Positions 9,958 through 47,948 of a stretch of DNA of 49,026 bases are shown piece after piece. The position numbers and the translations under genes are program-made. Below the pieces are notes generated by a model, which saw only the letters and a program-made list of their open reading frames with translations, did not search any database and was not told where the DNA came from. The stretch's first letter is position 1, and each line of letters starts with the position of its first letter. Origin of the DNA: Mediterranea sp. (in: CFB group bacteria) (GTDB lineage Bacteria > Bacteroidota > Bacteroidia > Bacteroidales > Bacteroidaceae); the NCBI GenBank assembly GCA_031262385.1, contig JAISHU010000104.1:1-49026 (forward strand), in the 5' to 3' direction.

Positions 9958-10038
9958 TTCTTTAATAGTTGTCGGATAATATCCTGTTTACGCATCAAAA
10001 TGTCACAATATTGCGCTTTCTGCTAACTCGTACTTTGC

Positions 10039-10073
10039 AAAAAAAGAGTGCTCAGCCGGAAGACAACGCACTC
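10039..10073 (-). terminator. Minus-strand terminator-like hairpin beyond the repeat element
   Basis: Read on the minus strand, GAGTGC, a 16-base loop and GCACTC are followed by seven T residues. It lies past repeat copy 1 in the direction of the PepSY-like gene's transcript, so that transcript could run through the whole repeat before stopping here. The stem is only 6 bp. Confidence 0.45.
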
Positions 10074-10082
10074 CGAAGCCGT

Positions 10083-10494
10083 AGCCAATTCGTTGCAAAC
10101 GCGAAAACAACGAATCAACTCGGCGGAAACAACGAATCATCCGCACGAAAACAACGAACTGTCGGCACGAAAACAACGAATCAACTGCCGGCTTAGCAAA
10201 TTATCCCGGCAAGTTAAGCTGTATTTCCCGGCAAATTATTGTGTTATCCCGGCAAGTTATCACGCTAACTTGCCGGGATAATTTCATAAAGTTCTTTTTG
10301 AGGCTGTTTTTTCGCGCTGAAGGCGCTTTTTGTTTCTTGACATAATTTCTTCATATCTTTCTGTAAGTATGCGGATTAAATAGCGTATTTTACATAGTTT
10401 AACGCGCTATACTCGCACGAAAGTCACCAAGCCGTCCCTTAGTCCGAAATAAGCCCGTTTTTCGAGGGTTCGTTTGACGTTTTGACACTTTGTC
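10083..10494 (-). repeat. Phased non-coding repeat element, copy 1 (inverted)
   Basis: About 410 bp between convergent genes, the inverted homologue of 26050-26457. In minus-strand order it has block A (GTCAAAACGTCAAACGAACC at 10467-10486 and TAGCGCGTTAAACTAT at 10394-10409), block B (TCAGCGCGAAAAAA at 10307-10320), block C (five sites of the type TTGCCGGG, centred near 10273, 10251, 10230, 10208 and 10188, in both orientations) and block D (four units containing AAACAACGAA on the plus strand, starting at 10105, 10127, 10149 and 10171, exactly 22 bp apart). No convincing ORF is present; the tracks at 9969-10196 and 10048-10281 are chance frames. The rest of 9958-10636 shows nothing else I can name. 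Confidence 0.85.
10244..10281. repeat. Perfect 16 bp inverted repeat inside element copy 1
   Basis: TTATCCCGGCAAGTTA, a 6-base spacer and its exact reverse complement. It consists of two facing C-block sites. In copy 2 the outer bases of this palindrome are kept but the left core is flipped, so the two sites there become direct repeats. This suggests the TTGCCGGG core is a recognition word and not merely a stem. Confidence 0.85.
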
Positions 10495-10636
10495 AATGGA
10501 TGCGTCTCCCAACTTCTACCCGTACACGACCTGCCAAAAAAGGGAAACCGCCCTCTCCCTTTGACAGGAAAAGACAGTCTCCCGGATATAGAAACGAAGA
10601 TTAGATATAACTAACGACCCTTTCTATCTTATATAT

Positions 10637-26049: not shown

Positions 26050-26457
26050 TTGTCATTTTGTCAAAACGTCAAACGAACCCCTCGAAAAACGGCTGTTTTA
26101 CGGACTGAAGTACGGCTCGTGACTTCCGATGCCCGTGTAGCGCGTTAAACTATCTAAAAAATAGGGCTTAATGTGCACTCATCCAGAACGATAAGCTCCA
26201 AAAATCTTTGCGAAGAAAAAGCGTGCTCAGCGCGAAAAAAAGTCCCCGAAAAGAACATTCCGAAATTATCTTGCCGAGTTAGCGCGATAACTTGCCGAGA
26301 TAAATCAACAATTTGCCGAGACAGACAGCTTAACGTGCCGGGAAAAATAGTTTTCCCGGCAGCCGGTTCGTCATCTCCGTGTAGTTGATTCGTTGTTTTC
26401 GCGCAAACAGTTTGTTATTTCCGTGCAAACAGTTTGTTGTTTCCGCGCAAACAATGC
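26050..26457 (+). repeat. Phased non-coding repeat element, copy 2
   Basis: About 400 bp between convergent genes, homologous to 10083-10494 in opposite orientation. Block A is at 26060-26079 and 26138-26153, block B at 26227-26240, block C has five TTGCCGAG/TTGCCGGG-type sites centred near 26274, 26295, 26316, 26338 and 26358, and block D has four units starting at 26370, 26392, 26414 and 26436 (GTTATTTCCGTGCAAACAG-like), exactly 22 bp apart. The A-to-B gap is 73 bp in both copies. The rest of the gap, 26458-26604, shows nothing further. Confidence 0.85.
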
Positions 26458-26604
26458 ATTAAAAACGGGGCAAGAGCAGATTGCCTCCGTTTAAAGAGCG
26501 ATTTTCCACAAAGTGACGGTTAGGGAAAAAGGCAAAAAGACGACAGATTGATAGGATGAGGCGAGAAATAGTTTCTTTTTAAAAAAACACATCCCTCCCC
26601 GCCT

Positions 26605-32920: not shown

Positions 32921-33080
32921 TTAACTCGGCAAGTTAACACGCTATATCGGTAGTTTATAGCGATTATTCCGGCAAGTTATTTTATTATCTCAGTGATTCA
33001 CGTTTGTCAAACAAGTGATTCACGTTCGCCAAACAGGTGATTCACAAATGCCAAACAGGTGATTCACAAACGTCAAACAA
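32921..33080 (+). repeat. Phased repeat array, copy 3 (C and D blocks only)
   Basis: Between convergent genes. Three C-type sites (CTCGGCAAGTTA, a degenerate ATCGGTAGTTTA, TCCGGCAAGTTA) are centred near 32928, 32949 and 32971. Four D units starting at 32993, 33015, 33037 and 33059 follow, exactly 22 bp apart. Each D unit opens with the palindrome GTGATTCAC, has a variable middle of about 6 bases and ends CAAACA plus A or G. Blocks A and B are absent. Confidence 0.85.
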
Positions 33081-33106: not shown

Positions 33107-33811
33107 CTACAAAATGCCCAGCCGCAATGCCACCGCAATACCCTCGTGTATGTTGGAAACGTGCAGCTTTTGATGTAACAATTTACGTTTGCACCCTTTT
33201 ATCGTACTCATCGAAACCTTTAGCATACATGCGATGTCGGCGTTGAGATAACCTTGCGCCGTCAGTCGCAGAATCTTTTTTTCGCGAATCGTAAGCCGAT
33301 GATAACGAATCGTCTCCCACTTACCCATGCCGGTACGTACATAGCGCGTCAACCGTTCCATATCCCATATAGATGCCGTATGTGTTACCGGAAACAAGGA
33401 GTGCGAAACCGTACACACGCCCACATGTGTCTCGGAGGCATGATTTTCCCACAACGGGTAGCAGCAGATGCTTATCCAATGGCTCTCTCCGCACCTGTTT
33501 TCGATAGGAAGCGTCAGTTCGGCGTGGCAGTTTTGCTGCCCATAGAGATTCAGATCACTGTACTTGATTAAGGTATCTTTGTAAGCGAGTTAGGCGGAGA
33601 GGAGATCTTTCCTGTGCAACACTCTTTTGAAGAACATAAAACCCTCGCGCATCATTTGTTCGGGCAGATGCTTACCCAACGCCAAGTTGTGCGGCATTAC
33701 ATGCACTACACTCTCCTTCGAGATATCTACCAGCAACAGCGCATGGTTTTGAGTATGGAGGGGAGCATCGGACAACACTCGGTAAGCTTTTAATAAATTG
33801 GTGTCTATCAT
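33107..33811 (-). pseudogene. LuxR-type regulator interrupted by one in-frame TAA
   Basis: Two ORF-track entries (33590-33856 and 33107-33454) are the two halves of one frame. A single TAA at 33590-33592 separates them, and the 45 codons after it read without another stop (LAYKDTLIKYSDLNLYGQQNC...). Start is ATG 33811 (MIDTNLLKAYRVL), supported by a promoter at 33841-33873. The N-terminal part looks like a sensory PAS-like region; residues about 170-230 are a LuxR helix-turn-helix (LTIREKKILRLTAQGYLNADIACMLKVSMSTIKGCKRKLL). It is either a recent pseudogene, a sequencing error or a split protein. Confidence 0.82.
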
Positions 33812-33840
33812 GGATGGTAGGTGTATAATTAAGATTGTGG

Positions 33841-33873
33841 CAAACATACAAAACAAAAAAGTATTCCGCCAAA
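33841..33873 (-). promoter_or_regulatory. Promoter of the interrupted LuxR-type regulator
   Basis: Minus strand: TTTG (CAAA at 33870-33873) and TATGTTTG (33841-33848) with a 21 bp spacer, 29 bases before ATG 33811. An intact promoter implies the gene was active until recently or still is. Confidence 0.7.
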
Positions 33874-47830: not shown

Positions 47831-47833
47831 ACC

Positions 47834-47921
47834 GTCCGACCAACGTCGTACGAGCGTCCGACGATGGTTGTACGACCGTACGACGTTGGTCGGACGCTCG
47901 TACGACGTTGGTCGGACGGTA
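47834..47921. repeat. Phased repeat array 4, with 11 bp sub-repeats
   Basis: Four units of exactly 22 bp begin at 47834, 47856, 47878 and 47900. Each splits into two 11-mers, and all eight 11-mers begin GT and have AC at positions 6-7 (for example GTCCGACCAAC, GTCGTACGAGC, GTACGACGTTG, GTCGGACGCTC). Units 1-2 and 3-4 face each other, giving a 32 bp perfect inverted repeat (47831-47862 with 47889-47920). It lies between two plus-strand genes. Confidence 0.85.
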
Positions 47922-47948
47922 AAGGAAGTGCAGTATAAAAATAATATA

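Follow-up and report, generated by a model that had tools for sequence, protein, structure and literature searches.

Intergenic arrays of about four short units at a 22- or 23-bp pitch recur across genomes of one large genus of the Bacteroidales

Overview

The intergenic regions of the window, i.e., the whole 49,026-nucleotide stretch of a Mediterranea sp. contig that was analysed here, and those of other genomes of the same genus carry short arrays of repeated units that are written in many different sequence words and that keep one pitch, 22 bp in most genomes and 23 bp in one clade, as well as an approximate number of units, about four. Among close species these arrays are conserved at their loci, and there the sites are constrained while the spacers are not. 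From the sequences we infer a putative dimeric protein bound to the sites and contacts between its neighbouring copies. We consider it rather probable that the arrays form a genus-wide class in which about four sites at a fixed 22- or 23-bp pitch would each bind one dimer, the neighbouring dimers touching one another to give one assembly.

Bacterial intergenic tandem repeats are usually seen as junk of variable number or as passengers of mobile elements. In the present arrays, the sequence varies and the unit number and pitch hardly do; this holds for many species of a large genus and, among close species, at loci that are conserved. Such constancy of number and pitch without constancy of sequence implies a common physical partner. 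None has been named in the literature, as far as it was searched, and identifying this partner could uncover a system that organises or insulates the chromosome in Bacteroidales. The arrays can be mapped by a simple scan rule, the autocorrelation of intergenic regions at lag 22-23.

The 22-bp pitch within and beyond the window's genome

Intergenic arrays with periods from 12 to 40 were scanned in the window and in 398 kb of the same genome, a sample of about 450 kb of its 2.6 Mb; the other genomes were also covered by partial samples. The genomes are assigned to Bacteroidales by their gene content (GlsB, LruC domain) and by kinship labels. The scan yielded 31 arrays at period 22, seven at period 21, and between none and two at each other period, whereas dinucleotide-preserving shuffles gave 0.0 period-22 arrays per replicate. 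The lag-22 autocorrelation that the initial annotation had proposed as a check is therefore positive: this period dominates the sampled intergenic repeats and recurs in other species. Arrays at 22 bp, made of different words, were found in the same-genus genomes that we denote G025 (14 in 253 kb), G021 (seven in 200 kb), G007 (four), G012 (four) and G031 (three), and in G026 the arrays stand at 23 bp instead. The peak at period 22 was not detected in 50 kb of E. coli, nor in the four other families of the order that were sampled. A literature search for 22-bp intergenic repeats in Bacteroides, with most subscription journals outside its scope, found no report of such a rule, and a search with an exact array unit of a genome contig collection, in which the window's own genome may not be visible, returned only chance matches in unrelated phyla. 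At glsB there is no genus-wide conservation of the locus, since among 29 genomes only one other array was found, also with period 22.

About four units were counted in 41 of the 61 placed arrays of all samples, a proportion biased toward four because the lag scan fires only from about 3.5 units, and thus the four-unit mode is weak when it is taken from the scan alone; the motif counts in the G026 clade given below are free of this bias. Rare long 22-bp arrays, of about ten or more units, occur at L152:474-726 (G025) and L191:6347-6565 (G031), and four is therefore a mode and not a limit.

The arrays of the window

At all four loci of the window where arrays had been described (10105, 26370, 32993 and 47834), Tandem Repeats Finder (TRF) called a period of 22, and together with the lag scans this bears out the strict 22-bp period (Table 1). 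The companion statement that every array has exactly four units holds only nearly. At the unit starts of the initial annotation, the units agree with one another at 13-18 of 22 positions at 10105, at 17-19 at 32993 and at 13-20 at 47834, but the first unit at 26370 is poor (10-13 of 22), the good run there amounting to about three units (2.8 copies according to TRF), and copies of other length exist in the genome. The four arrays are also not all that the window contains, since the element described in the next section carries a second array of approximately 21-22-bp units, at about 10195-10281 in one copy and at about 26270-26355 in the other. Thus, the pitch and the existence of the arrays stand, and an absolute four and a separate sequence family for each locus do not.

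Table 1. Coordinates of the arrays and of the dispersed elements in the window.
Feature	Positions	Strand	Basis
Element 1 copy, complete	9985..10497 (approximate ends)	-	Alignment with 45 full-length genome copies
Element 1 A array, four 22-bp units (TTCGTTGTTTYCG plus nine variable bases, minus-strand reading)	10101..10186	-	TRF period 22, lag scan
Element 1 B array, units TAACTTGCCGRGATAA at about 21-22 bp, outermost unit inverted	10195..10281	-	TRF 10201-10260, sequence
Terminator-like hairpin GCGCTGAAGGCGC followed by TTTTT, within element 1	10314..10326	+	Consensus scan; kept in copies
Element 1 copy, opposite orientation, left end diverged or missing	26100..26530 (approximate ends)	+	Genome-wide matches, sequence
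A array of this copy, as first annotated: a degenerate unit, then three good 22-bp units (26392-26453)	26370..26457	+	TRF, unit identities
Bare array, four 22-bp units GTGATTCACRWWYGYCAAACAR; TTGCCGG/CCGGCAA-type units just upstream	32992..33080	+	Related arrays in genome
Element 3 array, 94-bp palindrome TTACC...GGTAA of 11-bp half-units, period 22	47831..47924	no strand	

Two dispersed elements

The arrays at 10105 and 26370 had been taken for two sequence families, but they are copies of a single dispersed element of about 0.5 kb (element 1), one on each strand and reverse complements of each other. The equal unit number at these two loci is thus an inheritance, and the four independent loci shrink to three. 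We recovered 45 full-length copies of element 1 in the window's genome. Each is ordered as a left end TTATCAAAgTGTCAAAACGTCAAACG, a conserved leader, a terminator-like hairpin, the B array, the A array and a fading tail. The A array, which is among several array families without a clear palindrome, has four units in 44 of the 45 copies, and the core between fixed end points measures 440 bp in 39 of them and 418 bp, i.e., one unit less, in two. Leader and tail are conserved between copies, and the two ends show a weak inverted resemblance, the right one fading. Searches of plasmid and phage records did not return element 1 from either.

One arm of the B palindrome contains a 9-bp core that is direct in 21 copies and inverted in 20. 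Since the core is found in either orientation, the pairing in this palindrome is not kept. The two forms, CTTGCCGAG / CTCGGCAAG (window 10244-10281 and copies), constitute an in-place inversion polymorphism in which the surrounding bases have not moved.

The 47834 array is a second dispersed element (element 3). Of its 21 copies, 20 are exactly 94 bp long and one measures 116 bp (+22). Its earlier description as a run of D-type units has to be corrected to an inverted structure, based on 11 bp, inside a near-perfect palindrome. The inner palindromic array is present in both orientations with respect to its flanks (L061 versus L071), as if it were inverting between its arms. Within the families of element 1 and element 3, the constant four is partly a matter of common descent. 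Nevertheless, the rule of pitch and unit count generalises beyond descent within families.

Bare arrays in the window's genome

The 32993 array belongs to a looser group that has no conserved surroundings, and variants of the palindrome AATCACGTGATT make up its sites. The genome contains this palindrome several times more often than the control (71 and 88 matches on one strand and on the other, versus 10 and 12), and adjacent sites of its kind are again 22 bp apart. The bare arrays of this genome have about 4 to 6 units each. Next to the 32993 array, at a distance of 27 bp, is a LuxR-type HTH reading frame (33107-33856); upstream, this gene seems to run on in other frames, and it may be broken.

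Constrained sites in the 23-bp arrays of the G026 clade

It is the 23-bp clade, rather than the window's genome, that supplies the strongest data on constraint. With at most two mismatches, the word TTTGATGTACATCAAA was found at 48 sites in the complete genome G026, versus two for a reversed-word control, a count that is independent of any repeat threshold. About three of these sites aside, all belong to arrays in which successive sites are exactly 23 bp apart. G026 and the related species G003 and G074 have 23 arrays, 19 with four sites and four with three. The sites are 16-bp palindromes that mostly hold 1-2 bits per position, versus 0-0.3 bits in the 7-bp spacers. Thus, the arrays of these three genomes have constrained sites, free spacers and a fixed phase, as expected for a binding array.

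Many of these arrays lie at orthologous loci, recognised by flanking proteins that are mostly 60-98% identical. The loci of G003, G074 and G026 were fetched because they carry the motif, and the orthologous share is thus not an unbiased rate; it is the recurrence of the same loci among about 4000 genes that constitutes the evidence, and this conservation of loci was shown among close species only. Where the length of an array differs between species, whole 23-bp units have been lost or gained, and sites have been kept better than spacers. A second palindrome, TTAGACCCGGGTCTAA, forms arrays at the same 23-bp pitch and is mixed in register with TTTGATGTACATCAAA (A-B-B-B, A-A-A-A-B), and the A-B-B-B array is conserved between G026 and G074.

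These observations bear on the possibility that some property of replication or repair yields 22-23-bp duplications and that the arrays persist without any function. A single period shared by very different words, as well as length changes in whole units, would be expected from such a neutral process. A random duplication would copy the spacers too, and the conservation of the sites alone speaks against it, as do the two palindromes mixed in register and conserved between species. We therefore regard a neutral origin as very improbable.

The palindromes could also act at the RNA level, they and the larger inverted repeats forming hairpins in transcripts, as terminators or as stabilisers of 3' ends. 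The terminator-like hairpin of element 1, the long palindrome that is element 3 and a mild excess of arrays between convergent genes (see below) are in agreement with this idea. However, the clade palindromes have no excess of compensatory changes, with three double changes versus 4.8 expected at positions 3/14 and 14 versus 20 at positions 7/10. That half-site changes are not compensatory argues against hairpins and in favour of independent half-sites of a bound dimer. In addition, the G026 sites are mostly A+T-rich and loop-less, the arm core of the B palindrome of element 1 occurs in either orientation, and a search of Rfam gave no match at the arrays. Thus, a role as transcript hairpins appears quite unlikely.

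The word TTTGATGTACATCAAA contains TTGAT-N4-ATCAA, the textbook FNR box, and thus matches the known FNR consensus. The string of the box is also present in a paper on FNR of E. coli (PMC4214427). The arrays could then be multi-site operators of a regulator of the FNR/CRP family. But they are not specifically upstream of genes, the genes that flank them are unrelated, lone sites are nearly absent in G026, and other species use other words, so that we give this reading very little credence indeed; the resemblance of the G026 word to an FNR box is only a lead.

Genomic placement

The genes around the arrays are oriented much as in the background, convergent pairs being slightly more frequent (22 of 61 versus 76 of 339), and their orientation is about random around 14 arrays of G026. 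No common theme was found among twenty proteins flanking G026 arrays (glycoside hydrolases, YchF, a peptidase, formate-tetrahydrofolate ligase and others), nor do the arrays of this genome prefer or avoid ori or ter. An ordinary regulon was rejected, since the arrays are not promoter-specific, the functions of their neighbours are unrelated and the orientation is near background. A nucleoid-occlusion or ter-specific system was also rejected, given that in G026 arrays lie close to both points at which the GC skew turns. The near-indifference to the orientation and function of genes suggests chromosome organisation or insulation rather than a regulon; the candidates that remain from this placement are chromosome organisation, insulation and a selfish system. 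We also considered core sites of tyrosine recombinases, whose geometry (8-bp arms, 7-bp overlaps) fits superficially. The overlaps are all different, and partners could thus not recombine, which makes this reading unlikely.

A proposed mechanism

In the mechanism that we favour, each short and often palindromic site would receive one dimer of a putative sequence-specific DNA-binding protein, adjacent dimers would touch at a fixed distance, and about four of them would align as a single short nucleoprotein assembly. Words would then be free to differ between species or arrays, or to mix within one array, provided that pitch and number are kept. In the window's genome, two types of array have also been multiplied inside dispersed elements of about 0.5 kb.

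The initial annotation had proposed a platform for a cooperatively binding protein that presents equal faces of the DNA four times, with an identical number of units and different sequence versions at different loci. The platform is partly supported by the clade data, namely constrained sites, random spacers and half-site-like substitutions, the binding protein itself being putative. The equal faces are only approximate. At 10.5 bp per turn, 22 bp make 2.10 turns and 23 bp make 2.19, a rotation of about 34 or 69 degrees per unit, so that on relaxed DNA the units do not share exactly one face; the geometry agrees better with underwound DNA or with a fixed contact between dimers. The identical number survives as an approximate mode of four in the genus, and the different versions survive as the unrelated words of other species; at 10105 and 26370, one inherited element accounts for both loci.

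In a broader form, which we advance tentatively, the arrays would belong to a chromosome-wide architectural system of the genus, served by a fast-evolving family of DNA-binding proteins of which about four dimers would assemble on an array. The geometry of the array (four sites, 22-23 bp) would be the conserved signal, and the word would change along with the protein from one species to another and could even be mixed inside an array.

Relation to known repeats and to mobile elements

Several known systems share some of these features. Plasmid iterons, e.g., those of 22 bp, are direct repeats at about two helical turns that are cooperatively bound by dimers. The present arrays resemble iterons and partition sites in having direct repeats at about two turns, but they occupy dozens of chromosomal loci, with no adjacent replication or partition gene among the flanks scanned. 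The sites of SlmA, Noc, MatP and ParB are also palindromes spread across the chromosome regardless of gene function. They are, however, single sites or loose clusters and not about four sites in strict register, and the arrays of G026 lack any exclusion from ori or ter. A CRISPR array was rejected, since the units are degenerate (13-20 of 22 identical) and the spacers constant at 7 bp, versus unique spacers of about 30 bp and cas genes in CRISPR. REP sequences are hairpins of 20-40 nt with a GTAG or CGTC tag, found in alternating orientation and associated with RAYT transposases (PMC2817692, PMC3733652). Like REPs and BIMEs, the arrays consist of short intergenic palindromes in many copies, with more than one family in a genome; unlike them, their sites are loop-less, head-to-tail, at a fixed pitch and without compensatory changes.

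The closest described relative is BrickBuilt of Porphyromonas gingivalis, a member of the same order. BrickBuilt is a MITE with 23-nt tandem repeats without spacers, a leader and a tail, present at about 19 intergenic places, and its unit has constant and variable positions (PMC4596501). Its repeat number ranges between 1 and 22.8, its inverted ends are IS5-like and 12 bp long, and it has been reported only from P. gingivalis and P. gulae; direct repeats of 22 and 23 nt had been noted earlier in P. gingivalis strain W83 (PMC4596501). The likeness lies in tandem repeats of about 23 nt within an intergenic element (22 bp in elements 1 and 3, 23 bp in the G026 clade) and in a conserved leader and tail, which element 1 has (39 of 45 copies at 440 bp) and the bare arrays lack. 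In contrast to BrickBuilt, the repeat number is not freely variable here (four in 44 of 45 A arrays, a length of 94 bp for 20 of the 21 element 3 copies, four sites in 19 of 23 clade arrays), the inverted resemblance of the element 1 ends is weak, and the arrays use many unrelated words, often without any surroundings, with constrained palindromes and random spacers at conserved loci. We do not file the present arrays as members of BrickBuilt.

This comparison raises the possibility that all the arrays are mobile minisatellites, i.e., MITEs with internal repeats in which the arrays are passive cargo and their constancy is a product of copying. The dispersal of elements 1 and 3, with 45 full copies of the former and 21 copies of the latter, their conserved surroundings and uniform lengths, and the existence in G025 and G007 of elements with a leader recognisably that of element 1, having other 22-bp arrays inside or beside them, point in this direction. 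Against it, the ends of element 1 are only weakly alike as inverted repeats and the right one fades, unrelated words share one pitch, and the bare arrays (G000, G026 clade) have no conserved surroundings, while in the clade constrained sites alternate with random spacers at orthologous loci. Mobility of this kind accounts for the dispersal of elements 1 and 3 but leaves the bare, constrained and locus-conserved arrays unexplained, and as an account of the whole class mobile minisatellites seem unlikely to us.

Many copies of element 1 (e.g., L005, L011, L014 and L028) begin directly after an octamer similar to GACGCATC, which may be an insertion preference or a piece of a longer element. G025 has a dispersed family of its own (L099, L113, L116, L119, L122 and L124), with a leader related to that of element 1, AAACCGCCTGAGAATCGCTTATTTCGG..., and with 22-bp arrays of the TTTTAAACTTTTG type.
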